Below are positions 7,185-39,994 of a DNA stretch of 40,226 nt, in pieces. How positions within the stretch are numbered: the stretch's first letter is position 1; each line of letters begins with the position of its first letter. Position numbers and translations under genes: made by a program. Source of the stretch: Candidatus Saccharimonadota bacterium (GTDB taxonomy: Bacteria > Patescibacteriota > Saccharimonadia > Saccharimonadales > AQU-01); assembly GCA_018499905.2 (NCBI GenBank), contig JAHBAU020000008.1, forward strand, positions 1 to 40,226. The letters run 5' to 3'. The notes under the pieces are model-generated. The model did no database searches, had not been told where the DNA came from, and was given only the letters and a program-made list of their open reading frames with translations.

Positions 7185-7199
7185 TCTGCGAGTATAACA
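7185..7199 (-). promoter_or_regulatory. Extended -10 promoter placing the TSS at the start codon of the 6342-7184 gene
   Basis: Minus strand reads TGT-TATACT-cgcaga-ATG; a 6-nt spacer places +1 on the A of ATG. Confidence 0.55.
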
Positions 7200-7230
7200 C
7201 ACAATCGGTCACTGATTACGAAGTTAATTG

Positions 7231-7260
7231 TGTTATAATTTCTTGAGAATTACGGAGGGA
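7231..7260 (+). promoter_or_regulatory. Extended -10 promoter (TGTTATAAT, 7231-7239) and SD GGAGGGA for the 7266 methyltransferase
   Basis: TGnTATAAT exact consensus, SD at 7254-7260, ATG at 7266. Confidence 0.65.
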
Positions 7261-7265
7261 AAACC

Positions 7266-8042: not shown

Positions 8043-8044
8043 TT

Positions 8045-11911: not shown

Positions 11912-12930
11912 GAAACAAGATAGACACTCCGGTTGATATTGTCATGCCAACATTTAATAGCATGCGTTGGCTGCCAAAAACCATTGAAAGTATTCTGTCG
12001 CAAACTCATCAAAACTGGAAACTGTACATTACCGATGATGGCTCATCGGATGATACAAAAAAATACATTCTTGGTCTTAAAGAGAAACGAATTCACTACA
12101 TCTCTCAGCAGCACAAAGGTGCTGCTGCCGCTCGCAACTCAGGCATTACACAAGGTTCCTCGCCCTTTATTGCCTTTATTGACGCTGATGATATCTGGTA
12201 TCCAACAAAGTTGGCCGATCAGCTCCAGCTCATGCAGCAAGATACAACTGTTGGGCTCGTTTATGGGCAGCATTACAATATTAACGATCAGGATATCATT
12301 ACCTCAAGCCTCAAAATTGATAAACGAGGCGACTTGTTTGAAGAACTGTGCCACGGCAACTGTATTGCCGGTAGCGCCAGTATGGCAATGATTAGCCGCT
12401 CGATTGTTGACAAGGTTGGGGTGTTTCGCGAGGACTTGGTAAATGGCGAAGACTGGGAGTACTGGCTTCGCATTTCACAGCACTGCAAGATTGATTACGT
12501 ACCAAAAATAATTGCTGCTATCCGACAACACGGCGACAGCGTACAATCCAATACCAAAAGAATGGCCGATGGACTCGTGCAAGCATTTGAAGTTATTACG
12601 AGCGAGTACACACTCACGCGCTCTCAACGTATTTACATCGCTTCGTATTGTTTATTCAACGCAGCAAAAGACTACTTTGCGTCCACACACTACCTGCTAG
12701 CGCGAAAAACCATCATTCGTTTGCTCAAAGAAAATCCACATGCCTTGTTTGAGCTAGATAACTGGACAGTTAAATTTGGGGTTGGCCCATATTACAAAAT
12801 CCTGTTTTCTAACCCCTTCACTGACCTCCTTGGCAAACTGCTGAGACTTATCCAAAAGGCCTTGAGCAGGCTATTGGATTTTGGTTTTCGCGTTGTTCGG
12901 AAACTTACAAAAATAGTGCGAAGAGTATAG
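11908..12930 (+). CDS. GT2 family glycosyltransferase (tandem paralog of the 10901 gene)
   Basis: VDIVMPTFNSMRWLPKTIESILSQTH...FIDADDIWYPTKLADQ; collinear similarity to preceding gene. Confidence 0.92.
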   Translation: MRNKIDTPVDIVMPTFNSMRWLPKTIESILSQTHQNWKLYITDDGSSDDTKKYILGLKEKRIHYISQQHKGAAAARNSGITQGSSPFIAFIDADDIWYPTKLADQLQLMQQDTTVGLVYGQHYNINDQDIITSSLKIDKRGDLFEELCHGNCIAGSASMAMISRSIVDKVGVFREDLVNGEDWEYWLRISQHCKIDYVPKIIAAIRQHGDSVQSNTKRMADGLVQAFEVITSEYTLTRSQRIYIASYCLFNAAKDYFASTHYLLARKTIIRLLKENPHALFELDNWTVKFGVGPYYKILFSNPFTDLLGKLLRLIQKALSRLLDFGFRVVRKLTKIVRRV

Positions 12931-12939
12931 AAATCAGCT

Positions 12940-13866
12940 ATGAAACTATCGGTAGTACTCCCAACATACAATGGCGCAAACTATCTTGCGCTGGCACTAG
13001 ACAGTATTCTGACACAAACGTACACTGATTTTGAGTTACTGGTCATTAATGATGGATCAACCGACAAGACGGCTTCAATTCTTGCGGCATATGCCAAAAA
13101 GGACAAGCGGCTCCATGTGATAACCCAGCCGAACAAAGGCCTGGTAGCCAGCCTAAATCATGGCATTGAGCTCGCAAGCGGCGAGTATATTGCCCGGCAT
13201 GACGATGACGATGTGTCGCACCCAGAACGCTTCATGAAACAAGTTGCATTCTTGGACTCGCACCCCGATGTAGCTATTGTTGGCAGCTCAATGAGTGTCA
13301 TGGACGACGCAGGACAGGTCCTGCACAATCATGCTGTACTACTGCAAGATCCGGAACTGCGACACGAGTTATTGATTCGCTCCCCCTTCCCACACGGATC
13401 CGTCGTGTTTCGTAAATCAGCTGCGGTCAACGCTGGCTTGTACAATGGCGACACATGGCCCGCCGAGGACTATGATTTGTGGCTGAGGATGAGTCAGCAA
13501 GGTCAGCTGGCTAACATTGACGATTATTTGTATACCTACCGCGAAAATTCCAAAGGCATTTCATCAATGCGTCAACAAGAACAAGCCGAAAAAACAGCGG
13601 CAGTCCGCGCCCGTGCTTGGGAGCTGCGCCGTGTGCTACTGAATGCCAAACGTATTGATGTGTCAGCTTATTTAAAGCTTGATATGGGCGGCTTACGCAT
13701 CAAGCGAATTTTGGATAACTACCGCCAGGTGCATCACAAGGCCTGGCAAAGCCGCGATTCATTTATTATGATAAGAAACTTTCGGCTGATTGCTGGCAGT
13801 CCTCGCCTTTACCGCGATACAGCTGGTAAAATAAAACGGAAGCTAAGGAAGAAAGTGGACGCTTGA
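12940..13866 (+). CDS. GT2 family glycosyltransferase (paralog of the 9963 gene)
   Basis: LSVVLPTYNGANYLALALDSILTQTYTDFELLVINDGSTD...GEYIARHDDDDVSHPERF. Confidence 0.92.
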   Translation: MKLSVVLPTYNGANYLALALDSILTQTYTDFELLVINDGSTDKTASILAAYAKKDKRLHVITQPNKGLVASLNHGIELASGEYIARHDDDDVSHPERFMKQVAFLDSHPDVAIVGSSMSVMDDAGQVLHNHAVLLQDPELRHELLIRSPFPHGSVVFRKSAAVNAGLYNGDTWPAEDYDLWLRMSQQGQLANIDDYLYTYRENSKGISSMRQQEQAEKTAAVRARAWELRRVLLNAKRIDVSAYLKLDMGGLRIKRILDNYRQVHHKAWQSRDSFIMIRNFRLIAGSPRLYRDTAGKIKRKLRKKVDA

Positions 13867-14756
13867 TGCCCGTGCCCGATATTACCATTGCCATTCCTAC
13901 CTATAACCGCGAAGAAGTCCTCGTTAATACAATTCATGACGCGTTAAACCAAACTATAAAAAATATTGAAGTTTTGGTCATCGATCAAAGCCTTGCGCAT
14001 AGCGCCGCTACCCAAAAAGCCCTGGATACGATTAGGGATAAAAGGTTCCGCTATTTCCAGGTTGACCCCCCATCGGTCACCGCTGCTCGTAATTTTGCCC
14101 TGCAACAGGCAACCGCGCCAATCATCATATTCCTAGATGATGATGTGAAGCTTGACCCCAGGTTTGCAGCGCAGCATTTGGCAATCTATACAGCCAGGCC
14201 CGAGGTGAGCGCAGCTGGCGGACGCGTAATGCAAGCCGGTTTTCCGGTACATAATGAAATTTTACATTTTGATGAGTATGCTTCGTCACGCGGTGTATTT
14301 ACGTCACCTAAATCTGGTTACACCAATGCGTTTGCAGGCGGTAACTGCTCATTGCGCGTTGCAGATGCACTAAAAGTTGGGGGATTTGACACTCGGTACT
14401 ATGGTAATGCCTTTCGTGAAGAAAGTGACATGTCACTCAAAATGACAGCCGCTGGCATGAAGATTTGGTACGAGCCCAAAGCTGAATTATTGCACCTGGC
14501 CGCTCCCTATGGCGGTAATCGAGTCAAAGGCCACATTTTTGACCGTGCTGTGTTTTATCGTAATGAATTATTCTTTACGCTTCGCTGGACAAAAGGCCGA
14601 CGCTTGCGAGCCTTAAAAAGAAAATATCACGAGTACTGCTGGCAGGGCGGCAAACGGCTAAAGATCAAACGTTCAGTATTATTCTCAATGGGACTTATTG
14701 TCGCTTTGTGGCGTTTTGTATGGACAAAACAAACAATCGCTAAGGAGCGCGCGTGA
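13863..14756 (+). CDS. GT2 family glycosyltransferase
   Basis: ITIAIPTYNREEVLVNTIHDALNQT...IIFLDDDVKLDPRF. Confidence 0.9.
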   Translation: MMPVPDITIAIPTYNREEVLVNTIHDALNQTIKNIEVLVIDQSLAHSAATQKALDTIRDKRFRYFQVDPPSVTAARNFALQQATAPIIIFLDDDVKLDPRFAAQHLAIYTARPEVSAAGGRVMQAGFPVHNEILHFDEYASSRGVFTSPKSGYTNAFAGGNCSLRVADALKVGGFDTRYYGNAFREESDMSLKMTAAGMKIWYEPKAELLHLAAPYGGNRVKGHIFDRAVFYRNELFFTLRWTKGRRLRALKRKYHEYCWQGGKRLKIKRSVLFSMGLIVALWRFVWTKQTIAKERA

Positions 14757-15958
14757 GAATCGGCGTTGACGTACGGACCATGGAAGGCGGGGCTCAACAC
14801 CGGGGAATCGGACGGTTTGCCACCAGTCTTATTGAAGCGATGTCTAAAATCGACACTAGGAACGACTACTATTTTTTTGTATCACACAAAAATGCGCAGC
14901 CGCCAGATTTTCAGCTAGCTAAGGGATTCAAGCAGTCTGCGCAGCATGGTGGCAAGCAAGGACTGCGGGGCATAAAGTATGTGCGCATCATATATGCCAT
15001 GCCCAAAAAACTTGCTGTCGATACCTATGACCTGGACGTATTCTTTCAGCTTGACCCATTCATGCCAATTACGGCCCACACCACGCCCGTGGTTACCATG
15101 CTGTATGATTTGATTCCCTTTTTATTCCCCAAAACGTACCAGCACGTTCCTTTAAATGGCTACACACCCGGGCACTTTATCGGCTACACCCGATCAAAGA
15201 TAAAGTGGAAGATCCTGACCCGTATGGTCGCTACCTTTGCTCAGGCTGACAGGGTTATTAGCATTTCTGAGCATAGTAAAAAAGATCTGATTTCCTTAGT
15301 ACCCATAGTCAATCCAAAGAAAGTAGTGGCTATCCCGCTCGCAGGGGAGTTGCCAGCCAGTAAGAATCCTGGGCCAGGTGCACTCAAAATAGTACAGCAC
15401 AGATCGTTTCTTTTTTACTTTGGTGGTGCCGATCCTCGCAAAGGCTTAGTTGCCTTTACAAAAACACTTGATGCACTTTGGGAAAGCCATCCAGAGGTGT
15501 ATGTTGTCTATGCCGGCAAAGAGATTCTAGATATGCGTATACCTGAAGCGCGGCGGTTAGATAAGGCTACTAGCCAAGTCTCTCGCCCAAAACAGGTCAT
15601 CCGGCTTGGCTATATTTCTGACGATGAACTAATGTGGGCACTCAAGAACGCACGGTCGTTAGTATTTCCTAGTAGTTATGAAGGCTTTGGGTTACCTGTC
15701 TTGCAAGCCATGCAGGCCGGCTGCCCGGTGGTCGCTTATAATAATTCTTCGATTCCTGAAGTTGCGGGCAAGGCGGCCGTCCTAGTGAAAGACGGCACCT
15801 CAATGGTCCCGGCATTACAACAAATATTGTCCGATAAAACATATCGCAGTCGTCTGGTGCGAGAGGGAAGGTTGCAGGCTTCAAAATTTACTTGGGAAAA
15901 GTCAGCCCGCCAAACACTTAAAGTTCTAACCGAGGCCGCAAAGGAGAAAAAAGCATGA
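14753..15958 (+). CDS. GT4 family glycosyltransferase
   Basis: GTG start overlapping upstream stop (GTGA); RSLVFPSSYEGFGLPVLQAMQAGCPVV E(x7)E region. Confidence 0.92.
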   Translation: MRIGVDVRTMEGGAQHRGIGRFATSLIEAMSKIDTRNDYYFFVSHKNAQPPDFQLAKGFKQSAQHGGKQGLRGIKYVRIIYAMPKKLAVDTYDLDVFFQLDPFMPITAHTTPVVTMLYDLIPFLFPKTYQHVPLNGYTPGHFIGYTRSKIKWKILTRMVATFAQADRVISISEHSKKDLISLVPIVNPKKVVAIPLAGELPASKNPGPGALKIVQHRSFLFYFGGADPRKGLVAFTKTLDALWESHPEVYVVYAGKEILDMRIPEARRLDKATSQVSRPKQVIRLGYISDDELMWALKNARSLVFPSSYEGFGLPVLQAMQAGCPVVAYNNSSIPEVAGKAAVLVKDGTSMVPALQQILSDKTYRSRLVREGRLQASKFTWEKSARQTLKVLTEAAKEKKA

Positions 15959-17142
15959 GAATTGGCATAGACGCCCGCCCCCTTCAGCACGAGACACGCT
16001 ACCGCGGTATTGGCAAAGCCCTTGAGTTTTTCCTTGCAGCGTTGCCGAGCGTCCTTTCTCCAGACGACGAGCTGGTGTTCTATGTCGACAAAGAGCTTCC
16101 AAAGCCAGATTTACTTAACACGTTAAGTAAATCCCGAACTATTTTGGTACCTGCCCCCAAACTTGGCCGAAAACGCTACATCCGATCGGTTTTGAAAAGC
16201 TTTACGCCTATTCGACCATCAGTAAAAGATATTGATGTCCTGTTGCAATACGACGCTAATCTCGGTGTTTCAACACGCGTGCCAACAGTAACAATGTTTC
16301 ACGATCTCATACCATATTTATTTCGCGGACAAGAAAAAAAGATTCCGGCTAAGGGTGTTCGAAAAGCAAAAAACTCACTAGCAGGGAATTTATATTGGCA
16401 AAAGTATCTGCGTTTTTTGAAGCAATATGCCAAGGCCACGCACGTTATTGCCATTTCTGAATCCTCCAAACAAGACTACCAAAAGCATGTGCGCAAAAAT
16501 CCTAAGCAGCCTGTAACTGTCGTACATTTAGGTGTCACAAAAAGCCACCTAAGCGGCAAGCCAAGTGCTACAGCCAAGTCACTAGCTAAAGATCCATATA
16601 TTTTGTATGTTGGCGGTATCGATTTGCGCAAAAATGTCGTAGGGCTGGCTAAAACATTTTATGGCGTCAAAGAACAGCACCCAAAGCTTCGATTGCTGGT
16701 CATTGGCAAAGAGTTTGGCCTCAAAGAGCAGCTGCAGGACCTGGGTTGGTTTGCCGTATTAAACAGCAACGCTGATTATAAAAAAGATGTGGTGGTCCCA
16801 GGGTTTTTATCAGACGCTGACCTTGGTTATATTTATGCTCACGCCGAAGCTTTTGTGTTTCCCAGCCGTTATGAAGGGTTTGGCTTACCGGTTCTCGAAG
16901 CCATGCAGGCTGGCTGTCCAGTTGTGGCCTACAAAAACTCATCTGTCACCGAGATTTCCGGCAAGGCCGCCGTCTTGGTCAAGGATGGTGCATCAATGGT
17001 TCCGGCAGTCAGCCAGCTATTAACAGATAAGAATCAACAGAAAACGCTCATTGAAAATGGACGCAAACAAGTCAAAAAATTTACGTGGGAAAAAACCGCT
17101 TTAGAAACTTACCGTGTACTTAAAGCTGTTGCAGAAAAGTAG
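15955..17142 (+). CDS. GT4 family glycosyltransferase (paralog of the 14753 gene)
   Basis: EAFVFPSRYEGFGLPVLEAMQAGCPVV; ATGA overlap with upstream gene. Confidence 0.92.
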   Translation: MRIGIDARPLQHETRYRGIGKALEFFLAALPSVLSPDDELVFYVDKELPKPDLLNTLSKSRTILVPAPKLGRKRYIRSVLKSFTPIRPSVKDIDVLLQYDANLGVSTRVPTVTMFHDLIPYLFRGQEKKIPAKGVRKAKNSLAGNLYWQKYLRFLKQYAKATHVIAISESSKQDYQKHVRKNPKQPVTVVHLGVTKSHLSGKPSATAKSLAKDPYILYVGGIDLRKNVVGLAKTFYGVKEQHPKLRLLVIGKEFGLKEQLQDLGWFAVLNSNADYKKDVVVPGFLSDADLGYIYAHAEAFVFPSRYEGFGLPVLEAMQAGCPVVAYKNSSVTEISGKAAVLVKDGASMVPAVSQLLTDKNQQKTLIENGRKQVKKFTWEKTALETYRVLKAVAEK

Positions 17143-17144
17143 TC

Positions 17145-18167
17145 TTATTCGGAAACGCGTTGCGTCACTTCACCGTTTTGGATTTTACGCAGCTCTTCAA
17201 TGTCCGCATCAACCATGAGCTCAGCCAGTTCTTTAAAGGTGGTCTTTGGTTTCCAGCCAAGTTGCTTTTGGGCCTTTGCTGGGTCACCAATTAACAGGTC
17301 AACTTCTGCCGGGCGATAGTAGCGTGGGTCAATCTCAACATATTTTTCCCAATCCAAACCAACGTGACCAAACGCCACATCCAAAAATTCACGAATGGTG
17401 TGTGTTTCGTTGGTAGCAATAACATAATCATCCGGTTTGTCTTGCTGCAGCATTAGCCACATGGCTTCAACGTAATCCTTGGCATAGCCCCAGTCGCGCT
17501 TGGCGTCCAGGTTTCCTAAGTACAGCTTGTCTTGTAATCCAGCTTGAATGTGGGCGACAGCTCGGGTGATTTTACGCGTCACAAATGTTTCGCCACGCCG
17601 TGGGCTTTCATGATTAAACAAAATACCCGAGCAGGCATACATATCGTAACTTTCGCGGAAATTCTTCGTAATCCAGTGGCCATATAGCTTTGCCACACCG
17701 TATGGTGAGCGGGGATAGAACGGTGTCTCTTCATTCTGCGGAATAGCCTGGACCTTGCCGTACATTTCGCTTGAAGAAGCCTGATAAAACCGCGTATCCT
17801 TCAAGCCAAGCTTGTGAATGGCTTCCAATAGTCGCACGACTCCCATTGCTACAACGTCTCCGGTGTATACTGGTACATCAAACGAAACACGAACGTGGCT
17901 TTGCGCTGCGAGGTTATACACTTCGTCCGGACGAATATCTGCCAGAATTGTATAAAGGGAAGTAGCATCAGCAAGATCGCCGTAGACCAAATGAAGCTTT
18001 GCGCCTTTTTGGTGCGGATCCTGATAAATATGATCGATGCGGTGCGTATTAAACGTACTTGCGCGGCGAATGATGCCATATACCTCATATCCCTTTTCGA
18101 GTAATAATTCGGTTAAGTAACTGCCGTCCTGCCCAGTAATACCGGTAATAAGTGCTTTTTTCGCCAT
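17145..18167 (-). CDS. gmd: GDP-mannose 4,6-dehydratase
   Basis: [68 protein letters not shown]. Confidence 0.96.
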
Positions 18168-18209
18168 ATTCCCTCTTAAATTATCAAGATGTATTTTATC
18201 ATGTAGTCA

Positions 18210-19352
18210 GTGAGACCCAGAAAAATTCTTTTCGATGCCAACCCTATAGCCAACCCCCGCCCATCGGGTGTTGGTTACTACACCCAAGGACTGGTGCAGG
18301 CCTTGGCGGCGGCTGGCGGCGACAGTCTCGAGCTTGTCGGCCATTACTTTGCAGCCGGCAGCAGCACTAAGCGCCTACCGCAGGCGCCCAATATACGCTA
18401 CACACCTTCCCGTCTCTGGCATCCCAAAATCGTGAATCAGCTGCGTCGGCAGGGGATAGATATCCCTATTGAAATACTAGCTAGGACCAAGGCCGATTTT
18501 ATTATCTACCCGGCATTTTTTGGCCCACCAAGTCTATTTGGTACGCCCATGACTTCTATGATTCACGATGTCACCTATTTAGATCATCCCGAAATGGTTG
18601 CCAAGCGCAACCAGCAGGATCTTGCCCGTTTCGTACCAAAAACCATCGGCCGCTCAGCATTTACCGTCACGATCTCACAATTTTCAAAAGGCAAACTAGA
18701 AGAAGCCTACCCCAAGCTGCTCCACGAGACACTCATAACCCCCGTACCACCTGCGCCGTGGCAACCAGCCCATTCGCCTCAAAAAACACTCAAAAAATTT
18801 GGTATCACTAAAGATTACGTCTTATTCATTGGCAATTTAGAGCCACGCAAGAATCTTGGTAATCTGGCTTTGGCATACAGCAAACTACCAAACGCCCTGA
18901 AACAACGTTTTAGTTTGGTATTGGCCGGGGCAGAGGGCTGGAACAATCTGGACGACATGAATCAGATTCGTGCCCTTATAAAAGATGGCAATGACATTAT
19001 TTTGACCGGTTATGTAAATGATGATGAAAGAAATGCGTTGTTTGCTCAGGCCACCGCGCTGTGTTTTCCATCTACGTATGAGGGTTTTGGCATGCCAATC
19101 CTCGAGGCAATGCAGGCCAAAATACCCACGGCAATTAGCGATATGCCGGTATTTCACGAAGTTGCAGGGGAGGCCGCGCTCTATTTTGATCCGACTAAAC
19201 CAACTGCCATTGCTAAGGCTTTGCAGCGCTTACTACAAGATACGTCCTTGCGCCAACAGCTCATCAAACAGGGGAACAGGCAGGTTTCAACCTATAACTG
19301 GGAGCAGGTGGCTCAATCGGTTTTATCTAAGATTGACTCTGTTTTAGGTTAA
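18210..19352 (+). CDS. GT4 family glycosyltransferase (GTG start)
   Basis: LFIGNLEPRKNL, LCFPSTYEGFGMPILEAMQAKIPTAISD. Confidence 0.9.
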   Translation: MRPRKILFDANPIANPRPSGVGYYTQGLVQALAAAGGDSLELVGHYFAAGSSTKRLPQAPNIRYTPSRLWHPKIVNQLRRQGIDIPIEILARTKADFIIYPAFFGPPSLFGTPMTSMIHDVTYLDHPEMVAKRNQQDLARFVPKTIGRSAFTVTISQFSKGKLEEAYPKLLHETLITPVPPAPWQPAHSPQKTLKKFGITKDYVLFIGNLEPRKNLGNLALAYSKLPNALKQRFSLVLAGAEGWNNLDDMNQIRALIKDGNDIILTGYVNDDERNALFAQATALCFPSTYEGFGMPILEAMQAKIPTAISDMPVFHEVAGEAALYFDPTKPTAIAKALQRLLQDTSLRQQLIKQGNRQVSTYNWEQVAQSVLSKIDSVLG

Positions 19353-21913: not shown

Positions 21914-24463
21914 ATGGTCATTGTTATGTTTCGATATAAAAACATAAGGATCTTGGCAACTCTCTTTATAATTATTGTCCTCTGTTTGTTGCTCATGACG
22001 GTTAGTAGTGCCGACTCCACTACTTCTCCGTGGCTAACAACTACCAATCCTGTTTTGACTAAGTTATTTGATTTAAGTGCAGCGGATCAATTGCCGCCGA
22101 CGGTTGCAGGACTTGGAAATCGGGATTGCGTAAATCAACCAGTGGTGTCTAGACCTGCCAAGGTACTACAGACACAACAAATAATCGACGGTTGTTTTGT
22201 GCCAACAGGATTTGGTGTGGCTGATTCAAATGGTTGGATTAGGTTTAGTGGAGCCACGGTGGCTGGCGCAAGTGTTAATTTTGGACCTTATTCGCCTGGA
22301 ATCATCCCAATACCGGCCTCTTTAGATGTTTTTCATTACACGGGTGCCGGTGCAAACGGACTTTACTTACACCTCACCAGAAATTTGCCGCAGCCAATAG
22401 GTGTTGAGACAGCTTTGGACGGAAAGGTGACATACCGCTTTACCCGAGCTGCAGATGGAAGTGTACGCGACAAGTCTGGTGTACTACTACCGGCCCACAC
22501 AGACTCATTATCCTTTTCGACAAATGGCAAATGGGCGGTGGTTGACTCGCCAAATCGAGCAATGTTACGAATCAACCTCGAGACTCTCGAGGTTCTGCCC
22601 TTCGCGCCTGCCTTTAATTACAGCTTGGGTGTCTCGCCTGGCGTGCAAACCGCTGTATCGAATGACGGCCGCTACGCTATAGTTGCTTCGCGAACTTTTG
22701 GTGTTCTGAAACTTTATGACCTTGCCTCATGTGGTGCTGTCCCAACGAGCATTAACGCTCCTGTATCATGCGCGTCAAAGGATTTATTACCCTATTTCCA
22801 AAATCAGCTACCTGGGTTTTATGGAGTGCACACTGTGCGTTTTGTTTCTGGTGAAGTGATTAAGTTGTATGGGTTGGCGTCATCAGGTGGAGTTATTACT
22901 AGAGCAAAGTACGCCCTTGCTGCTCCTGGAACGGACCTTACGCACCCTAATTACTTAGCTTTGGGTGATTCTTTTTCATCTGGCGAAGGCGATAACCAGG
23001 GTGGGGTATTTTATGAGCCGGCAACCAATAACCCAACCAACAAATGTCATGTCAGCCGTCGAAGCTACCCCTACCTTATTGCAGCGGCTATTTCACTAAA
23101 TGATTTTCATGACGTGACATGTAGTGGCGCAGTGATTAGTAACATATCTAGAGACATATCCTATCCTTCGAGTACAACGAGTTTAGCATTTTCAGATTGG
23201 ACTCCAGGATATCAACCCCAAAAAAATTACATAATAACCCCGCCCGCCTTCCTCACCATCTCAATCGGCGGCAATGACATTGGGTTTGGTAGCATCATGG
23301 CGGAATGCGCGACTTCACACTACAAAATCCCTTTGCCGACCACCTGCCCTCAAGCAGGCGACCCAGTTGAGCGCGCCAACGCCGCTAAGCTAATCGCCGA
23401 TCAATTTCCTCGACTGATTCAAACTTATAAGGAGCTGGTTGCAGCAACAGATCAAAAAACAAAGATCTATGTGGTGGGCTATCCAAAATTTGTCAAAGGT
23501 TCTGGCGGCAGCTGTGGGCTGAATGTCCGACTTAATGATCAAGAGCGAGAATTGGTCGACAGGGGTGTCTCGTATCTAAATCAAGTCATTAAGGCAGCCG
23601 CCGAAAATGTTGGTATTCACTACCTTGATATTGAAAACGCCCTAGAAAACAGAAATTTGTGCAGTATTGTTGCCGATGACCAGATGGCCGTGAACGGACT
23701 GACCGAGGGCGATGACAAACGCTTGCCGTGGTGGGCAGCCTACTTGGTTGATGGTGTGACTGGTGTTGGCGGACTGGGCAGCCTTGGTATTGCGAACGCT
23801 AGTTATCATCCCAATGCCATCGGTCAACGACTGATGTACGAAAAAATTCTAGCGCTAACAAACGGTGATCCTTCATCGTTTAGTATTTGCCCTACGAATC
23901 AGGTATTGTGCCCTACGGCTACCCCGATTCCGATGCCTGACTCGAGTTATTTTGGTCAGGAGGCGTATGATTATGCTGCAAAATACAAGGGCGTTCCGCT
24001 ACCCTATCCAATCTCCGGGCCCAGTGCTCCGGCAAGAATAATAACCACTCCGTCTTCGACATCGAACACCATCCGAGCAAAACTCGATTATTTAATGCCT
24101 AACACCGTAGCCTCCCTATCTTTGGATCGTGTTGAATTAAAACGAGTAAATACCGGCCAGCAAACACAACTGCAAGAAGACATCATAGTACCCACCAATA
24201 CCTCGCCTGGCTTACATCGCCTAGAGGTTAGGGCTACAAATATTGCTGGCGAACAGATTACGGTTAATGAAACCATCTTTGTGCCCGGACCCGAAGGCGA
24301 CATTAACGGTAACCATGTACCCGACCATCAGGAAGCCTGCGGCTTCACGCCTGCCAGCGGACAAGACAGTGATAATGATGGCATTGACGACGCCTGCGAC
24401 GGCTCATTAACACCTAGTTTGCCTTTTCTCACTATATCTGTTCGAAAGCTTTATGCTCGATAG
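21914..24463 (+). CDS. Secreted SGNH/GDSL hydrolase with C-terminal thrombospondin type-3-like Ca-binding motif
   Basis: Signal-like N-terminus; YLALGDSFSSGEGD (block I), SIGGNDIGF (block III), YHPNAIGQ (block V); C-terminal DINGNHVPDHQE...DSDNDGIDDACDG. Start may be 21926. Confidence 0.82.
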   Translation: MVIVMFRYKNIRILATLFIIIVLCLLLMTVSSADSTTSPWLTTTNPVLTKLFDLSAADQLPPTVAGLGNRDCVNQPVVSRPAKVLQTQQIIDGCFVPTGFGVADSNGWIRFSGATVAGASVNFGPYSPGIIPIPASLDVFHYTGAGANGLYLHLTRNLPQPIGVETALDGKVTYRFTRAADGSVRDKSGVLLPAHTDSLSFSTNGKWAVVDSPNRAMLRINLETLEVLPFAPAFNYSLGVSPGVQTAVSNDGRYAIVASRTFGVLKLYDLASCGAVPTSINAPVSCASKDLLPYFQNQLPGFYGVHTVRFVSGEVIKLYGLASSGGVITRAKYALAAPGTDLTHPNYLALGDSFSSGEGDNQGGVFYEPATNNPTNKCHVSRRSYPYLIAAAISLNDFHDVTCSGAVISNISRDISYPSSTTSLAFSDWTPGYQPQKNYIITPPAFLTISIGGNDIGFGSIMAECATSHYKIPLPTTCPQAGDPVERANAAKLIADQFPRLIQTYKELVAATDQKTKIYVVGYPKFVKGSGGSCGLNVRLNDQERELVDRGVSYLNQVIKAAAENVGIHYLDIENALENRNLCSIVADDQMAVNGLTEGDDKRLPWWAAYLVDGVTGVGGLGSLGIANASYHPNAIGQRLMYEKILALTNGDPSSFSICPTNQVLCPTATPIPMPDSSYFGQEAYDYAAKYKGVPLPYPISGPSAPARIITTPSSTSNTIRAKLDYLMPNTVASLSLDRVELKRVNTGQQTQLQEDIIVPTNTSPGLHRLEVRATNIAGEQITVNETIFVPGPEGDINGNHVPDHQEACGFTPASGQDSDNDGIDDACDGSLTPSLPFLTISVRKLYAR

Positions 24464-30854: not shown

Positions 30855-32429
30855 TTATCGAGGCACAAGCCCAGAAATTACATACTTGTTCAGGTCGATA
30901 CCCTGTCGTTCCATAGCGTTATAAACACTAGTACTGACTAGCTTCCGGTTCTCTGGATTAGGAATGAACGCTCGAAACTCTTCTGAGTAAATATCTTCAC
31001 CAAAATATGCCGAAATAAACATATAGTTCTTGTAGACAGAAATACCTAAGATGTCTCGATTGCCGCGTAGCTGATATATTTTTTTATCGATACTATCGGT
31101 ATTATCTTTGGTTGTATCAACACGCAGCGCAAAGTACCGATTCTTCTTGTCGTTCACACAGATAATATACGAATCGCCATAACCAGTTAAACCGCAAAAT
31201 TCCATATCCTGGCCAAAGGTGTATTGGGTTGATCCGCTTCGTTCAAGTGTATCAAGCGCGGTGATACCAGTGTCAGTTACTAGTACCAACCCTGACTTAC
31301 TGTTGTACATAGTCCGGACATTGCTAACGCCGTATTCGAACCTTGCTTCGTCGCCCGAAATACTATAAACCTTCATAGGTTGATTGGTTTTTTCACCCAA
31401 AACACACACTGTATTCTCACCACACAACTCAACTTGTTTAGCTTGCTGTTTTACGGCAAAAGAACGGGTTGATTTATTTGAGGATGAGTAAACCATAATG
31501 GCGGTTGTTGGTGTTTTGGTTTTGACTGGCTCGTCTTCGTCGGTGCCTTCGCGCTTCTCCTCGTCTGAATAAGTGGCAACTATCATATCGTCCCTAGCAC
31601 TAAGACCTATAGCCTGAAACGTTGTTTCTGCTGGTCGATCAATACTTATTTCTTCTGGTTGAGCCTGAGCACTAGGATAGTAATAGACTTTGTCGAGAGC
31701 TAAGGAATAAGCCAAAAAGCCTTCGCGGTAAGCCAAAAACTTAAAATTAGTATTTGTGTCCAAAGCGCTCAAGACACCGGTTGTTCTAACTGTGAGACCA
31801 TTCCCCAAAACATTTGCTGTGTATGGATATTTTTCACCCGACTCGCTTGTTGGCTGTCGGCCAAAAACAATAGTCCCTTCTTTGGTGGTCAACGAACCCA
31901 ATATGGTGCCCATGGCCGTATCACTCTTGGTAATGTAGGTGGGCAACGAAGCGGTTGCCGGGATATGTGTCGTAATGATGGCGCTAAAACCACAAGCATA
32001 GGAGTATAAGACAGCCTCGTGATAGAAGTTGCACTCCGATGGGTTGTCGCCTACAAACTCACGGAACTTTTCTGACACGAGCGCTAGGCTTGTTTGGGTT
32101 GTTTTGTAGAAACCACCAATATCAACCATCTTAAACGCGTGACTATCTCCTTGTGAAGCAATTACCTCATACCTGGCTTTTGGCAGTGTCAAAGTGATTG
32201 GTTTGTCGGTCACGCTCACCTTGGTTGTTCGAAGATTAGATTGGTTGGTGATGCTGTAATCGGTTGCTTGACCCGTAGCGGCGATTTCTAGACGACCAGT
32301 GTTTGACAGTTTTACGATTCCCAATACGAGCAACAAGGCTATGCCGACATACATCCAGCGCTTAGCAAGCCACTGCACCAAGGTTGTCATTAATTGCGTC
32401 AATCGTTGCATGATTTCCCCTTGTTCCAC
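30855..32429 (-). CDS. Membrane-anchored hypothetical protein (possible beta-propeller-like extracytoplasmic domain), T4SS-like operon
   Basis: N-terminal TM MYVGIALLLVLGIVKL; 524 aa ORF abutting the next operon gene. Confidence 0.75.
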   Translation of the reverse strand: MEQGEIMQRLTQLMTTLVQWLAKRWMYVGIALLLVLGIVKLSNTGRLEIAATGQATDYSITNQSNLRTTKVSVTDKPITLTLPKARYEVIASQGDSHAFKMVDIGGFYKTTQTSLALVSEKFREFVGDNPSECNFYHEAVLYSYACGFSAIITTHIPATASLPTYITKSDTAMGTILGSLTTKEGTIVFGRQPTSESGEKYPYTANVLGNGLTVRTTGVLSALDTNTNFKFLAYREGFLAYSLALDKVYYYPSAQAQPEEISIDRPAETTFQAIGLSARDDMIVATYSDEEKREGTDEDEPVKTKTPTTAIMVYSSSNKSTRSFAVKQQAKQVELCGENTVCVLGEKTNQPMKVYSISGDEARFEYGVSNVRTMYNSKSGLVLVTDTGITALDTLERSGSTQYTFGQDMEFCGLTGYGDSYIICVNDKKNRYFALRVDTTKDNTDSIDKKIYQLRGNRDILGISVYKNYMFISAYFGEDIYSEEFRAFIPNPENRKLVSTSVYNAMERQGIDLNKYVISGLVPR

Positions 32430-34436
32430 TTAGTTACCATCAACCGACCAGTGCCAAGCTTCGTAGCCACGTTTTGCTCGGGCTATATTAATATCATCTC
32501 GCCCGCTTCCTAAACTGCCCCACTCATGAAAACCGTAAACCTCAGCATTGGCTACAAGCCAGGCAAAACAACGGTCAGACGCCTCGGTTGCTCGCCTATC
32601 GATGAGCTCACCATCACAACTAAAGTCAATTGCAAAACCCATTTGGTGATTGGAATAGCCGGGTGCTCCGCCACCTGGACAGCTAATAGTTTCACCTGGT
32701 GGCTTAGGATATGGAGGCGGGCTGGGAGTTATGCCATCGTTAGCGCACCAACCCAAATAAATTGATATTTGATCTTCCATTCTTCTAAAGGCACCGCCAG
32801 ACAGGTTTATGCCATCAGCCGTAGCAGCATTCATCATATCGTCAAGCTGCTTTGACACTTGTGAGTTAACTACAATGCCCTGAACACGACAAATCTTTAT
32901 CAGGACTAGCCTTCCGTCGTTATAACCTCTAGCACCACCGCTAGGAGTAACATCTTCTCCCGCCGCACAATCAATACCAGTTGTGTCATCAGAGACGACG
33001 TCAAGCGGCGGGTAGGCTCCTCCGCCCACACAACCGCCGCCAGAAGTAGACCCACTGCTCGGTGCGGTCAGTGAACCTAACTCAGCGAGTATGGCAGCCG
33101 CATTCGCTCGTCGTATGGGCACCTGTTCTTCAATACCACCCGGCCGTTCATAGCGTCTAAGGAATATATCACTGGCCTCATCGCTGGTAGTTGCTGCTCG
33201 GATAGGGTCTAGTACCGAGCTCCTGAACTCGTCACTTTCTAGAACCGACCACAGATATTCAAGCTGCAAACTCAGGTCACCGGCGATAACTCCCCTGCTA
33301 GCCGAAAGTTCCCGCAAAGCTTGCTTAAATGGCGGGTAGGTAAACTGGACTATGCCATACCCTGGCTGGCCATTACTACTGGGACTACCGTCTCTGTTGC
33401 GGTCTGGCGGAACGTTGTCATCAAGGCTGGAAGGCTCGCCGGGCCGAGAAACTTCATTCCGCGAGTTCAAAAAACCATATTCAACCAAACGCGGTTCAAA
33501 ATGAGACTCGGCCTGCATGTTGCCCAAAATGCCTGCTGCCTGCGCCGGTGTAAGGCCTTTCTCGATTAAGAAGAAGTAAATCCTTTGCCTATTATCGTCG
33601 CCTCTCAAAGTTACGCTGCAAGTACAACTACCGCTATTGGTCGCGGTTCCAGGACTGACTGCGCCACGTATCAAACCGGCAACTAAAGCTCCCATGGCAG
33701 ATATCCCCGACCCAGTTAAATGAACGTTCAGCCCGTCTCTCGTGTCAATGTAGCCATTTGTGTCTGCTAGTCCGCCCATGTTGGTGGGGTCGATTGTTTC
33801 GCCAAAAACAGTTTTTGCCCACGACAGTATTTTGTAATTCTTTTGCGAGGGTGAGCCCATCTCATATATAACTGCATTCGCATCGTTAAAAGCGTCTACA
33901 ATTGAGTTACGGTTAACAACTGCGATATCAATCCAGTATATTTGAGCCTCAGGCGACAGTGCACGGATTTTATCTATCATAGCTGCAACATTTTCGGTGG
34001 TCATGCCAGACAGGTTGGTTCCAAGCTCAATAATGATATGCCGAGCCGTTCTAATATATTCCTGATCAATGTCAATTTGACCTAAGCCGTCTGGCGATAT
34101 GCCACCAGATAAAGTTCTCCCGGATAAAGAGCTGCCTTGAAATGTCCAGCCCTCACTACTAAACGCGCTCTGTAGCCCGCTCTGAACCTGGGTGCCAATC
34201 GAATCACCGACAAAATAAACCGGACCAGGAGTTGAATCAACTGCTGTACCTGGTGCTGCCACAGAGCAAGTTGGGTCAGAATTAGGATCACGAAAATTCT
34301 CCTGCTCAACTATGCGATCGACATCATCTCGAGTAAACGGTAGATATTGCGCAGCGACCTGAACCGGAATCACCAACTGTAGGCTACACACAACAATGAG
34401 CAGTAATTTGCTAAATCGACGGAGTAGGGCCTTCAT
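32430..34436 (-). CDS. Secreted three-module wall-active protein: SGNH-like + lysozyme-like + VanY-like D,D-carboxypeptidase
   Basis: Signal peptide; YFVGDSIG...IIELGTN...NVHLTGSG (SGNH); LTPAQAAGILGNMQAESHFEP (phage-tail-lysozyme-like); SNHQMGFAIDF and EAWHW (VanY SxHxxGxAxD and ExWH). Confidence 0.85.
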   Translation of the reverse strand: MKALLRRFSKLLLIVVCSLQLVIPVQVAAQYLPFTRDDVDRIVEQENFRDPNSDPTCSVAAPGTAVDSTPGPVYFVGDSIGTQVQSGLQSAFSSEGWTFQGSSLSGRTLSGGISPDGLGQIDIDQEYIRTARHIIIELGTNLSGMTTENVAAMIDKIRALSPEAQIYWIDIAVVNRNSIVDAFNDANAVIYEMGSPSQKNYKILSWAKTVFGETIDPTNMGGLADTNGYIDTRDGLNVHLTGSGISAMGALVAGLIRGAVSPGTATNSGSCTCSVTLRGDDNRQRIYFFLIEKGLTPAQAAGILGNMQAESHFEPRLVEYGFLNSRNEVSRPGEPSSLDDNVPPDRNRDGSPSSNGQPGYGIVQFTYPPFKQALRELSASRGVIAGDLSLQLEYLWSVLESDEFRSSVLDPIRAATTSDEASDIFLRRYERPGGIEEQVPIRRANAAAILAELGSLTAPSSGSTSGGGCVGGGAYPPLDVVSDDTTGIDCAAGEDVTPSGGARGYNDGRLVLIKICRVQGIVVNSQVSKQLDDMMNAATADGINLSGGAFRRMEDQISIYLGWCANDGITPSPPPYPKPPGETISCPGGGAPGYSNHQMGFAIDFSCDGELIDRRATEASDRCFAWLVANAEVYGFHEWGSLGSGRDDINIARAKRGYEAWHWSVDGN

Positions 34437-36998
34437 TTATTGTCCTCCCGCGGGGTCTAAACTAAATACCTTGGTCATCGAGTCGGCAACTGTTTGATCA
34501 AGCGCGCAGGGGTTGGTAACAGTGTAAATTTCTTCCCGCGTGTCTGGATCAATGATTTTACTTGCTTCCCGTGCAGCCTCGTATTGAGCACACACCTCGT
34601 CAGTTAGTAACTCTGATTCGATTTCGAGGGCCGGATCGTCAACCGGGAAGGCATACTGAGTAACCCCGAACATTTCCCCACGATCAGTGAGTACGGCTGC
34701 CGAAACTTGGGGGGTTGTTATGTTACGGATGACGTTTCCAAGTGCCGAAAAAACATTGAGGTTGATTTCGAAACGCTTCAATTTTGGAATACTAATAGCG
34801 ATATTGGTTACCGATTGACTCGCTACAGACCGGGGATTACCCAGGTCTAGGTATCGTGCAAACAAACTTGAAGAGTTCCATTCATCGGCCTTTTGCTGAG
34901 CAATAGCCGAATCGAGTGCGGCTTGCTGTTCATCATTGACCCTGGCAGCGCCAAGTCCAATAAAGCCTTCGTCGGTTTTCTGACCTTTCGCGAAGGCATT
35001 GTAGGTTACGTCTGCACCAGCAACTATCTGATCAAATGCTTCTTGATCTTCGGCATCACCGTTGACCACTTCTGGGAACATCTTGGTCATTAAATAGTTA
35101 AGAAGCTTAAAGGCATTGTTTGAAACAATTTCCGTCACACTATTCATAAAGTCACCCAAACCAGGAATATAACTGAGTGAGCCGATAAGTAAGTTGCTTA
35201 CACCACCAAGAATATAATTTATTCCCTCTAAAATAGGTCGAATAACTGTTCGGGGCCGTATGCCAACGCAGTTGCCTCTTACCTCAGTACCATAACAAGC
35301 ACCATAAGTGTTGATTAAGCGAGCAATCACCTTGCCTTCATCAGTATTGCGCCACTCCTCAATAAATATGACCGGCTGGACGTGTTTTTCGGGGCATGCC
35401 AAAGGGCCGTCTTGGCCATTAATAACTACATTATCATCACAAGATACCGCCCCAAGTGCTCTCGACCCAGTCATTTTTTGATATATTCGACTACGATCAA
35501 AACCATCAACCAACTCTAACGCGCCACTTATGTCTTCTGCGCTGGCATCACCAGATTGAATATCGTCGTCAATCGTCGCCCAGGCCGCAAAGTAATTGGC
35601 ATATGCAGATTCGTTTATACCCCTGACATACTGAGTCATCTCTTTATTGGCAATCGCGGTATCGATACGGTCGACCATATCCGCCAAAGTTGCAGCTAGG
35701 TAGATTTGACCAGCAATAGGCACTGACGAAGCGGCGGCCTCGCCAGCTACCGGGCCGGCAATCTTTGTGACTATGGTCTGAACAGCCTTTTCGGTCAGGA
35801 ACTGACCAAGGCTTTTGTCGCCAACTTCTGCAGCAATCTTGGCTAGTGCATCACCATCAACATTCTTTATTATTCGTTCAGCAGCTTCATTAGCTAGTTT
35901 ATCGACCTCCCCTCTGCAGTCGAGCACAAAACACATGAGATATGTGGCCTTACGTTCACCAATCGGCTGCGAAATCCAGGCTATGATCTTGAGCTTTAGC
36001 TTTCTAATGGCGCTGATCTTCAAATCAGCGACCGCATCGCGTTTTTTGCATGCCAACCAGCACCACTTACTTGCTTGATATTTACGCCATAACAAACTGC
36101 GGACTTGCCACCTTTCCCTAATGCTTGGTGCGACCGTCAACTGGTCGGTGAACTTCAATACTTCTTTCGTCGTTGATCTTAATCCAGAATCACCGATCAA
36201 CTCCCCCTTGTGATATACCAAGATAGTGTTTGGATCACGCAGGTTTCTCTTAAACTCTAACCCATAGTTATTGAAAAGTTTTTCTTCAATCCGATTATCA
36301 CGCCAATTAGTAAACATTCTGCCCATAATACCGGTCCCCGGATTAACTGCCACGCAATCTTTCGAGATCATCGTGCCACACTCTCTCAAAGAAGGCGTGA
36401 TCACATTCTTCATATACTTTTCAACGAATTTCTCTGCTCGACGCTCAACTGCATACTCGATCCGGTCATTAAGCCCGCTTTTTATGGTGTTCATAATGTG
36501 CTTAACAGCAAGGCTTGGAAAAAAGAGCAACACAAGACCTGCCCCTCCACCAAGCATGGCCGCCAAAATGCCACCACCGATCAGTAATTTTTTTCGTTTG
36601 CGCTTGGCGCTCGACTGAAACTTAACAGGTTTCCATGGCATTGCGTCGTCGCCCTTAGAGCCCTTGCCACTACCACCGTCGCCATTATCTCCCCCATCGT
36701 CTTTGTTGTCACCACCACTGTCGCCCGATTTATCCGACTTATCGGCATCTTTTTTGCCAGATTCTTGAGCGTTGTCGTCACCGCGTTCTTCGGCATCACG
36801 TAGCTGATCTGAGTCTAGTGGTTCAGATGTATTCTCTGGCTCATTGTAGCTGCTCGAACCTGGACTTGTGTCGCCGCCATCCGCATCATAGACAGTTTTT
36901 GCTTCAGGGTTTGCGGCTCCTTGCTGCTGCTCATCATAGATCCCCCCTTGTCCCTGCGAAGGTCGCCTAAATTTTGGGTAGAAGTTACGATTAGCCAT
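34437..36998 (-). CDS. Large membrane protein of the T4SS-like operon; acidic Gly/Asp-rich disordered N-terminus
   Basis: GDSGGDNKDDGGDNGDGGSGKGSKGDD low-complexity region, TM KKLLIGGGILAAMLGGGAGLVLLFF, second hydrophobic block ILGGVSNLLIGSLSYIPGLGDF; several paired Cys. Confidence 0.75.
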   Translation of the reverse strand: MANRNFYPKFRRPSQGQGGIYDEQQQGAANPEAKTVYDADGGDTSPGSSSYNEPENTSEPLDSDQLRDAEERGDDNAQESGKKDADKSDKSGDSGGDNKDDGGDNGDGGSGKGSKGDDAMPWKPVKFQSSAKRKRKKLLIGGGILAAMLGGGAGLVLLFFPSLAVKHIMNTIKSGLNDRIEYAVERRAEKFVEKYMKNVITPSLRECGTMISKDCVAVNPGTGIMGRMFTNWRDNRIEEKLFNNYGLEFKRNLRDPNTILVYHKGELIGDSGLRSTTKEVLKFTDQLTVAPSIRERWQVRSLLWRKYQASKWCWLACKKRDAVADLKISAIRKLKLKIIAWISQPIGERKATYLMCFVLDCRGEVDKLANEAAERIIKNVDGDALAKIAAEVGDKSLGQFLTEKAVQTIVTKIAGPVAGEAAASSVPIAGQIYLAATLADMVDRIDTAIANKEMTQYVRGINESAYANYFAAWATIDDDIQSGDASAEDISGALELVDGFDRSRIYQKMTGSRALGAVSCDDNVVINGQDGPLACPEKHVQPVIFIEEWRNTDEGKVIARLINTYGACYGTEVRGNCVGIRPRTVIRPILEGINYILGGVSNLLIGSLSYIPGLGDFMNSVTEIVSNNAFKLLNYLMTKMFPEVVNGDAEDQEAFDQIVAGADVTYNAFAKGQKTDEGFIGLGAARVNDEQQAALDSAIAQQKADEWNSSSLFARYLDLGNPRSVASQSVTNIAISIPKLKRFEINLNVFSALGNVIRNITTPQVSAAVLTDRGEMFGVTQYAFPVDDPALEIESELLTDEVCAQYEAAREASKIIDPDTREEIYTVTNPCALDQTVADSMTKVFSLDPAGGQ

Positions 36999-37020: not shown

Positions 37021-38934
37021 TTATACACCAGGAGTTAGCCTGTTAGTTAAGTCAATTGTTCCTTGCGGTTGATTAATATCACCCAATTGATTGGTTTGCT
37101 GCATTTGGCCCGGGTTGGTAGTGATTAGGCTGGTTTCTGTCGGACTGCCTGTGATTTGTATATGCACATGGCTTTGGCCTGCGAAGAACAATCCTTGACC
37201 CACCGGGAATTGACTTAAGCGTTTCGATTCCTCGCTCGTTAAGCGAAAAACATCAGATAACACATCGACGGCTGAAGGCGATTGTTTGAGCAATAGCTGC
37301 ATCGAGGCATTGGCTACGATTGCCCGCCCCATTCGGCTGCCCATAAAGTCCTCAACATCCTGGCTAATAGTTGTAATGCCCAGGTTATATTTTCGGGCAC
37401 GTTTAGCAAGTGAGAACAAGAAGTTTGCCGAATCTTCATATTTCATCAGCTGCCAGGCCTCATCAACTATGAGAATGCGTCGTTTTTGGTCGGACTTGGT
37501 TTTATTCCAGATGTAATTTAATACAATATACATTGCCACCGGCCGTAGTTCATCCTCGAGGTCGCGGATATTGAATACAACCATCGGATTATTAATATCG
37601 ATATTGGATTGCTGAGAGAAAATTCCGGCAAAGGTGCCACTGGTGTATTTACGCAAACGCTGTGCCAATTGTGGCCCGGTTCCGCCCATATGCAGCAAGG
37701 TGTCATACAGATCATTAATGGTCGGGGTAATGGCAGTATGCGTTAACGGATCATTCGTGATACCGGCTTTGGCGTAGGTTTCGATTAGTGCAGCATCCAG
37801 ATCGGCTTCTTCAACCGGGCTTAGAGCTGGGAGGGCTGCTACCCCGCCACCCACCATCTGTGACTGCGCGCCACCCATCATCAACCTAAATAATCCATGG
37901 AGGGTTATGAGGTTGCTACGCAAGGCATTATCAGCCTCTTCGCTGTCGATGACTTTTGGTAGATCAAATGGATTAATCCTGGTCGCCGAACTAAGCGACA
38001 GCCGAACATAAGCGCCACCAACTGCGTCACACATCCGTTGATATTCATTCTCTGGGTCTATGATAAAGATCTCAGTACCGAACATCAGACTGCGCAGGGC
38101 CTCAAGCTTGACCGCAAACGATTTACCGGCACCAGACTTGGCAAAGACCACTGAGTTACTGTTTTCAAGGCTAAAGCGATCAAATATAACCAGTCCTGAG
38201 TTGTGCATGTTTATACCATACAAAATGCCGGTATCTTGACTAAGATCGGCGCTGGTAAATGGAAAGCTGGTGCTGATCGCCCCGGTGTTCATATTGCGCC
38301 GGATCTGTAGCTGGTCAACGCATTGCGGCACAATACTATTAAAGCCTTGCTCCTGCTGTGAAGTAGCCGGCTTAGAAAATACCAACTGTTGTCCCAAGAT
38401 TGATTCAACCTTGTGACTGACAAACTCGAGCTCTTCCATGCTGCCACCGTAAATCGTGAAATAGAAACCAAATCGGAAGAAACGTTCCTCGCCGACCTGC
38501 AATTTATCACGCATCTCTTCGGCGTCCATAATAGCTGCTTGTTTTGCAGGATCGCGAACACGGCCCTTTTCAGAGTCAATCTGAATGCCGGCTTCCAGCT
38601 GGGTGACCTTTTTGCGGAGATTGTCTAATACTACCTGGCTCTCTACCGGATAAATAAACAGCGATATGTCCATTACTTCATCCAGGTTAACCATGCTGCT
38701 TAACCAACCGGTATAGATCTGCCGCGGGTAACCGTATACATAGAACGTTCGAGCATATCGGGTACCCAGATGAAAGAAGCCATTCTCATATACCAGAGAA
38801 CTTGGTGCAATAAAGTCACGAAGCGCCGTAATACCCTTTTGAAAAGCAGTATTAACCTCTTGCTGCTCCCGTAGGCGTTGTTGCTGGGCCAGCGTGACTG
38901 GATCAATCTGGGGCTGCTTTTTTCCAAAGGCCAT
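37021..38934 (-). CDS. virB4: VirB4-family T4SS ATPase
   Basis: Walker A VVFAKSGAGKSFAVK, IIDPENEYQRMC, Walker B RRILIVDEAWQLM, TTISQDVEDF; ATG 38934 chosen over GTG 38937 because SD GGAGGAAG lies 6 nt upstream. Confidence 0.94.
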   Translation of the reverse strand: MAFGKKQPQIDPVTLAQQQRLREQQEVNTAFQKGITALRDFIAPSSLVYENGFFHLGTRYARTFYVYGYPRQIYTGWLSSMVNLDEVMDISLFIYPVESQVVLDNLRKKVTQLEAGIQIDSEKGRVRDPAKQAAIMDAEEMRDKLQVGEERFFRFGFYFTIYGGSMEELEFVSHKVESILGQQLVFSKPATSQQEQGFNSIVPQCVDQLQIRRNMNTGAISTSFPFTSADLSQDTGILYGINMHNSGLVIFDRFSLENSNSVVFAKSGAGKSFAVKLEALRSLMFGTEIFIIDPENEYQRMCDAVGGAYVRLSLSSATRINPFDLPKVIDSEEADNALRSNLITLHGLFRLMMGGAQSQMVGGGVAALPALSPVEEADLDAALIETYAKAGITNDPLTHTAITPTINDLYDTLLHMGGTGPQLAQRLRKYTSGTFAGIFSQQSNIDINNPMVVFNIRDLEDELRPVAMYIVLNYIWNKTKSDQKRRILIVDEAWQLMKYEDSANFLFSLAKRARKYNLGITTISQDVEDFMGSRMGRAIVANASMQLLLKQSPSAVDVLSDVFRLTSEESKRLSQFPVGQGLFFAGQSHVHIQITGSPTETSLITTNPGQMQQTNQLGDINQPQGTIDLTNRLTPGV

Positions 38935-38954
38935 CACAAACTTCCTCCAGAAGT

Positions 38955-39043: not shown

Positions 39044-39994
39044 TCATACCAGCTCCTTGTCCAAATTGGGCTGTGCGGCCATGCCATCACCTTTAGTGAT
39101 AACCGGCGCGTTCAGGTCATTAAAATTCTTTAGTTGCTGTCTGGTCGCGGTATCTGGGTTATAGACATCGTAATAGAGTTCAATCAACTCCTGCGTATCA
39201 AGCGGTAAACCCTGTACGCCACACTGTAAAAGTCCGGCTAGAACAGATTGCACACGGTTTCTGAGTTCGGTCTTAGCCTTTTCCAGATCAACTTCGTTGA
39301 TAACCACGTGCTGTTCTTGTTTTGGCTTGATCAAGCCGCCAATCCCGCTAAACAGGTTCTTGCTTGCAGTTAGCGCCTTCTGGATGTCAGGCTGTGCGAA
39401 ATAAGGAATAACAATATAAAACTTCTTATCCATAATGTTCGTCTGCATCGACAACTCATCCATAAAGCCGATGTAATCTTCCATAAGTAGTGCGAGCAGC
39501 ATGTTGTCGTGCTCCGAACGGATCTTGTCGAGCTTTTGAATATACGGCCTTAGGTCAACTTTTTGCGAATGGATAAAGATTTGAATCGGAAAATACAATG
39601 AATTTAAAAATCCTTGATAACTATACTCAACCGCTTCACGCTCCTGCGGGCTCATCAGATCAAAGTTAATAGACTTGGCCATGATGACCGAGCGGAAAGA
39701 CCCATCATTCATAATGACAATGCCGTCTCGAATTTCAGCAATCTGTAGGGCGTTCTGCGTACTATTGTTATTGACAGGCTGAGCGGGCGCGGCCGGCTGG
39801 CCGGGTGCCGGAGGGGCTTGCCCAGGCATCATACCTGGTTGCATTGGTTGTTGACCATAGTCGGGTACACCGCCTTGCGGATGCGACATGGCTGGGTTGT
39901 GCGTTTGAAAATCTTGAACGTAGCTATGGCTTAAAGCAGGTCCGGGCGCGGGCGCCGGCGCTGGTGAGGGAGAGTGAGGCTGATTTGGGTTCAT
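39044..39994 (-). CDS. VirB4/TraC N-terminal-domain-like protein of the T4SS-like operon
   Basis: IAEIRDGIVIMNDGSFRSVIMAKSINFDLMSPQEREAVEYSYQGFLNSLYFPIQIFIHSQ; Pro/Gln-rich N-terminus. Confidence 0.78.
   Translation of the reverse strand: MNPNQPHSPSPAPAPAPGPALSHSYVQDFQTHNPAMSHPQGGVPDYGQQPMQPGMMPGQAPPAPGQPAAPAQPVNNNSTQNALQIAEIRDGIVIMNDGSFRSVIMAKSINFDLMSPQEREAVEYSYQGFLNSLYFPIQIFIHSQKVDLRPYIQKLDKIRSEHDNMLLALLMEDYIGFMDELSMQTNIMDKKFYIVIPYFAQPDIQKALTASKNLFSGIGGLIKPKQEQHVVINEVDLEKAKTELRNRVQSVLAGLLQCGVQGLPLDTQELIELYYDVYNPDTATRQQLKNFNDLNAPVITKGDGMAAQPNLDKELV

Follow-up and report, generated by a model that had tools for sequence, protein, structure and literature searches.

A secreted three-module wall-active protein in a conserved slot of the Saccharimonadia type IV secretion locus, and the changing content of that slot

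What use would the type IV secretion system (T4SS) of an epibiont have for a protein that carries three different wall-active modules? The question is raised by a gene in the window, by which we mean the whole stretch of 40,226 nucleotides analyzed here. The open reading frame at 32430–34436, originally predicted without a strand, is real: it lies on the minus strand, starts with ATG and encodes 668 amino acids, and a plus-strand reading was ruled out by its many stops. The translated N terminus carries a signal peptide at about residues 1–29 (34350–34436, minus strand; KALLRRFSK / LLLIVVCSLQLVIPV / VAA-Q) of the Sec type, without a lipobox. In a hydrophobicity scan of the protein the N-terminal 12-mer reached 2.9, and no transmembrane-like stretch was seen further on. 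The upstream VirB6 gene abuts the start directly (TAAATG), with an AGGAGG-type ribosome-binding site inside its 3′ end.

Fourth in a packed minus-strand run, the gene is preceded by genes for a TrsD-like, VirB4 N-terminal-domain-like protein (39044–39994; NF041427, 4e-6), the VirB4 ATPase (37021–38937; NF045971, 354 bits) and an 853-aa VirB6-like protein (34437–36998), which gave no significant Pfam match in the window copy and was identified from its location and from the corresponding genes of relatives. It is followed by a membrane-anchored, beta-rich, propeller-like protein (30855–32429), whose likely start is the ATG at 32411, with a Shine-Dalgarno sequence (AAGGGG) ahead of codon 7. This neighbor has one N-terminal transmembrane helix and then an all-beta domain (AlphaFold2 pLDDT 87.4) that weakly matches WD40-type propellers in Foldseek (TM about 0.35); its homologues occur in about 15 T4SS loci, and elsewhere one or two shorter proteins (about 200 aa) take that place. 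Past the run, recF, dnaN and dnaA lie on the plus strand. The locus thus combines a VirB4 of the CD1110/Patescibacteria type, TrsD-like and VirB6-like neighbors and a nearby dnaA-dnaN-recF group, as in MPF-FATA-like T4SSs of Patescibacteria, and its layout agrees with the location of Patescibacteria T4SSs near the replication origin reported in PMC12102498. Relatives of VirB4 in named records come mostly from Candidatus Saccharibacteria. Three records filed as Flaviaesturariibacter or Candidatus Nomurabacteria (L195, L214, L225) carry a Saccharibacteria-type VirB4 (81–88% identity) and are probably mis-binned or mis-named. Elsewhere in the window are a long surface-polysaccharide-like cluster (3138–19352) with an epimerase, an ABC transporter ATPase, methyltransferases and several glycosyltransferases, and a 665-aa protein (1064–3061, plus strand) whose C terminus holds an N_BRCA1_IG Ig-like domain (62 bits).

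Three distinct modules, a secretion signal and a T4SS-like operon had been predicted, and all were borne out. When the protein was searched against Pfam, the predicted lysozyme and VanY modules scored above the cut-offs, whereas the predicted SGNH module fell below. The Phage_lysozyme2 module (PF18013; residues 281–451, 33084–33596, minus strand) reached 94.3 bits against a cut-off of 28.2, and its catalytic Glu310 is invariant in 61 sequences; it is the only lysozyme2 of the genome. The VanY/peptidase M15 module (PF02557; residues 523–664, 32445–32870, minus strand) reached 44.9 bits against 25. Its zinc ligands (His597, Asp604 and His662) and catalytic Glu659 are all present and, with Arg551, are kept in 94–100% of 36 sequences. 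By its sequence, this module may be either a D,D-carboxypeptidase or an M15 endopeptidase. A second VanY elsewhere in the genome is stronger (153 bits, against 48 for the window VanY) and can serve upkeep of the cell's own wall; the window copy diverges from it. A phage origin of the whole protein was rejected, since phage matches were confined to the lysozyme module (about 30% identity) and no phage genes lie around it; a plasmid origin was rejected as well, VanY being the only module to match plasmids, again at about 30%.

Only these two modules stand on the window sequence alone, and hence the SGNH esterase-like module (residues 70–250, 33687–34229, minus strand) needs the support of relatives. 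The window copy scored 18.1 bits with Lipase_GDSL_2, under the Pfam cut-off of 32.9, and three related loci exceeded it (L040, 45.1 bits; L048, 39.2 bits; L039, 36.3 bits). A profile built from 32 SGNH modules of T4SS loci matched the SGNH domain of Staphylococcus aureus OatA (E = 2.8e-22), and also S. pneumoniae OatA, PatB and many GDSL esterases. Consistently, an AlphaFold2 model built on the alignment of 32 relatives gave a confident SGNH fold (pLDDT 89.9), and Foldseek matched it to several SGNH enzymes, including PatB, OatA and Ape1, at E-values of 1.7e-7 to 1e-6. Ser79, Asn141 and His239 are kept in 97% of 33 sequences. The one departure from the predicted intactness of all catalytic motifs concerns block V (D-G-L-N-V-H), in which the Asp (Asp234) stands at −5 from the His, compared with −3 in most relatives. 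Since this Asp is displaced by two residues, the SGNH active site is likely, short of certainly, intact; judged by sequence, the displacement could imply weak activity. A second and stronger GDSL/SGNH domain (residues 349–639, 44 bits) is present in an 849-aa protein encoded outside the T4SS operon (21914–24463, plus strand).

The module is related to OatA, PatB and Ape1, and the activity most likely predicted for it is removal of the O-acyl groups shielding the glycan. The N-terminal acyltransferase-3 domain typical of OatA is absent from the 668-aa protein by Pfam. In the genome (assembly 91% complete) we found neither an MBOAT O-acetyltransferase nor an intact OatA-type enzyme, the only Acyl_transf_3 match being a 143-aa frame below the cut-off. 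This counts against both a transferase role and an O-acetylated wall of the cell's own; other ester substrates are possible.

To compare the locus across the order, we found VirB4 first in 41 genomes and later in 158, and examined the DNA downstream of it. In most of the order's genomes VirB4 identity is 65–87% (five copies, in G084, G130, G142, G068 and G111, contain one internal stop each, by sequencing error or decay). Nearly throughout the order the same arrangement was found: TrsD-like gene, VirB4, VirB6, the gene in the place of the 668-aa frame (hereafter the slot), one or two further genes, and recF-dnaN-dnaA on the opposite strand. Modules were called at 110 loci with profiles seeded on Pfam-annotated slots and trained inside the order; direct Pfam searches of the proteins agreed with these profiles. 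At least one wall-hydrolase module was found in 106 of the 110 slot genes and, when the slot, the VirB6 C terminus (tail) or both were counted, at 107 of the 110 loci. Nearly every slot protein (108/110) has a signal-like N terminus, and two have a later transmembrane-like stretch. The expectation that relatives carry the same architecture beside VirB4 therefore held for linkage of a wall hydrolase to VirB4 and failed for the exact SGNH-lysozyme-VanY layout, which occurs at two of the 110 loci (the window and L054); conservation of this layout was rejected. What is conserved is the position of the slot; its content changes. In a first look outside the order (20 loci), VirB6 followed by a lysozyme-NlpC protein was seen only in L253, from another family of the same class; among 19 loci of other Patescibacteria the same layout was not found with our profiles, trained as they were inside the order, and a stray wall module lay nearby in 7.

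A Pfam scan of 76 slots detected lysozyme2 in 43, M23 in 11, GDSL_2 in 11, a C39-like domain in 10, CHAP in 7, SLT in 6, glucosaminidase in 5, amidase_3 in 4, GH3 in 3 and a beta-lactamase-like domain in 3, with amidase_2, VanY, M14, GH43 and an Rpf-like transglycosylase in one or two each. Among 103 VirB6 tails the same search gave VanY in 29, M23 in 17, GDSL_2 in 5, an exo/endo-phosphatase-like domain in 5, M14 in 3 and amidase_2 in 2. One glycan cutter is paired with one peptide cutter in 58 of the 110 slots. VanY was never seen in a slot and its VirB6 tail together (0 of 6), a pattern that suggests exclusion; it was not significant (Fisher p = 0.19), and the idea was dropped. Some slot contents were unexpected, such as GH43 with lysozyme and CHAP, an Rpf-like transglycosylase with C39, and GH3 with SGNH/lysozyme (L137:2732-4966; L113:4852-7194; L048:7113-10715; L114:3535-5940). 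The five VirB6 C termini that match the endonuclease/exonuclease/phosphatase family (for example L041, 10314–14384, minus strand, which also has M23) possibly represent a non-wall activity fused to the channel protein. A second SGNH-lysozyme protein, 829 aa long and extended at its N terminus by about 450 residues, was found on another contig (L065:9134-11623; contig C7 of G040), with no VirB4 in the 20 kb examined there. The T4SS neighborhood is rearranged in the small genomes of one genus (g52; L146, L150, L154, L155 and L160): the VirB6-slot layout is mostly missing after VirB4, and lysozyme-NlpC or glucosaminidase proteins lie nearby.

How fast does the slot change? Among the 110 loci we counted 43 different architectures of the slot and, with the tail included, 72 combinations; modules that escaped detection inflate the number of architectures. 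When slot architecture was mapped on a VirB4 tree with 107 tips, no fewer than 81 changes were required; with shuffled labels the mean was 92 and the lowest value in 60 shuffles was 88, so that architecture is only slightly inherited along the tree. Of 18 genera with at least two loci, 13 differ in slot or tail, and clean swaps of the glycan cutter, all checked with Pfam, were seen in five genera. In one (g98), a locus with lysozyme2 (L098) and one with SLT (L101) have VirB4 proteins 93.6% identical and lie on contigs longer than 450 kb. Spearman correlations with VirB4 identity were 0.07 for NlpC, 0.10 for M23, 0.12 for lysozyme, 0.27 for C39, 0.36 for SGNH and 0.39 for VanY, low values that partly reflect saturation at about 30% module identity; recF and dnaN gave 0.83 and the TrsD-like gene 0.91, and the core of VirB6, itself fast-evolving, gave 0.37. 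Family labels require 13 changes on the lysozyme tree, compared with 3 when these loci are placed on the VirB4 tree; shuffled labels require about 18. Modules in cross-family pairs can be 61–71% identical where VirB4 is 69–74% identical. Errors in metagenome-assembled genomes might add some of the variety; several of the swaps are on long contigs.

We propose that the 668-aa protein is probably the wall opener of the Saccharimonadia T4SS, analogous to VirB1, with modules shuffled to fit host walls. The gene lies in a T4SS operon with VirB4 and VirB6 and encodes an exported glycan-cutting domain, two features of the VirB1-type class. SLT and CHAP, the domains of homology to VirB1, TraG and CD419, were not matched in it by Pfam, and we regard it as a putative functional analogue of VirB1 and not a homologue. 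Action at the T4SS is well supported by linkage of the slot and by fusion of modules to VirB6; together with the secretion signals, these place the enzymes at the T4SS channel, on the outer side of the membrane. Sec would export the protein, which would then act beside the VirB6/VirB4 channel. Acetyl groups on muramic acid block lysozyme-type enzymes; the SGNH module would take off such protecting O-acyl groups, the lysozyme module would cut the glycan, and the VanY module would trim or cut the stem peptides. Both this catalysis and its order, like the host wall as the main target, are what we infer. In this view the modules come from a common pool and are exchanged, disappear or shift between the slot gene and the VirB6 C terminus more quickly than the T4SS motor evolves; the simplest reason would be the need to fit the walls of different hosts.

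The same enzymes would be used to open the cell's own wall, as any T4SS must, and the protein could open the epibiont's peptidoglycan only, for T4SS assembly, the diversity of slots being neutral replacement of equivalent cutters. Such a role is that of VirB1, TraG and PrgK in conjugation systems, and VirB1-type enzymes hold the corresponding position in other T4SSs (PMC12102498); Saccharibacteria make peptidoglycan (PMC10768705, for TM7x), and the frequent pairing of a glycan with a peptide cutter resembles monoderm VirB1. However, turnover is high even inside a genus, and neutral replacement explains poorly the additions beyond basic opening, namely the OatA-like SGNH esterase, GH43, GH3 and the Rpf-like transglycosylase; the esterase, moreover, has no obvious substrate in the cell's own wall, given the lack of an intact OatA-type or MBOAT enzyme in the 91% complete genome. 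We consider an exclusively self-directed role unlikely. The motor hardly changes while the cutters do, and this, together with the unusual extra activities, favors the host wall as target: penetration of the host wall is, in our view, more likely than remodeling of the cell's own wall alone.

A different possibility is a secreted lysin that would harm or kill the host or nourish the epibiont, independently of channel assembly. The multi-catalytic layout, the distant likeness (about 30% identity) to lysins of phage tails and to endolysins, and the killing of many host cells by TM7x early in infection (PMC10768705) would fit it. Against it, a plain Sec signal needs no T4SS for export, and throughout the order the slot keeps its place between VirB6 and recF, with modules found fused to VirB6, tying the enzymes to the channel and making a free lysin quite improbable. 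Improbable, too, is that the SGNH module is an OatA-like O-acetyltransferase decorating the epibiont's own wall for protection: OatA SGNH domains are its closest solved relatives by profile and PatB ranks high by fold, but no intact membrane acyl-donor partner was found in the 91% complete genome or fused to the protein, SGNH also occurs on VirB6 tails and with other hydrolases, and the Ape1 esterase matches by fold.

Returning to the wall opener, a further reading, which we offer tentatively, is that the slot holds an exchangeable cartridge of wall cutters with a fixed place at the T4SS, that its modules move between lineages and between slot and VirB6, and that the set present determines host range, as in phage lysins. 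For the questions of how Patescibacteria breach the Gram-positive wall of another organism and what fixes the range of their hosts, the slot supplies a short list of genes, and its proteins form an extensive natural collection of Gram-positive wall hydrolases.

The individual modules have known counterparts. With OatA, PatB and Ape1 the SGNH module shares the fold, the GDS and GTN blocks and the catalytic His; unlike OatA, it lacks a membrane acyltransferase domain and is joined to a lysozyme and a peptidase. The lysozyme module has the domain and catalytic Glu of phage tail lysozymes (PF18013; phi29 gp13 type), from which it differs by its identity of about 30% and by its place in a chromosomal T4SS gene with no phage region. 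The R, HxxGxAxD and ExWHW motifs are those of VanY/M15 peptidases. VirB1-type hydrolases of monoderm T4SSs carry SLT, CHAP or LytM domains. According to PMC12102498 they are multidomain (SLT with CHAP). The premise of a single lytic transglycosylase as the usual equipment of a T4SS operon is true of diderms and not of monoderms, with their multidomain TraG and PrgK (PMC12102498); a multi-module enzyme as such hence has precedent. Module shuffling, VirB6-hydrolase fusion and an SGNH esterase in this setting had no account in the main texts searched, as far as these were available, and appear undescribed, with priority uncertain, as against the known multidomain T4SS hydrolases. Like TraG of pIP501, PrgK of pCF10 and TgaA, the 668-aa protein is a secreted multidomain hydrolase with a glycan and a peptide cutter, encoded in a T4SS operon with VirB4 and VirB6; unlike them, it is made of lysozyme2, VanY and an SGNH esterase, and the contents of its slot vary by genome and are partly fused to VirB6. 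Another Saccharimonadia T4SS, the S. epibionticum ML1 locus SEML1_0006-0019, likewise has peptidase and lysozyme genes past virB4. The T4SS of S. epibionticum is essential, and these two kinds of homologue, encoded immediately after virB4, are reported to be essential for epibiotic growth (PMC12102498, citing PMC10633639); in TM7x, T4SS expression is higher at first contact with the host than in recovery (PMC10768705).
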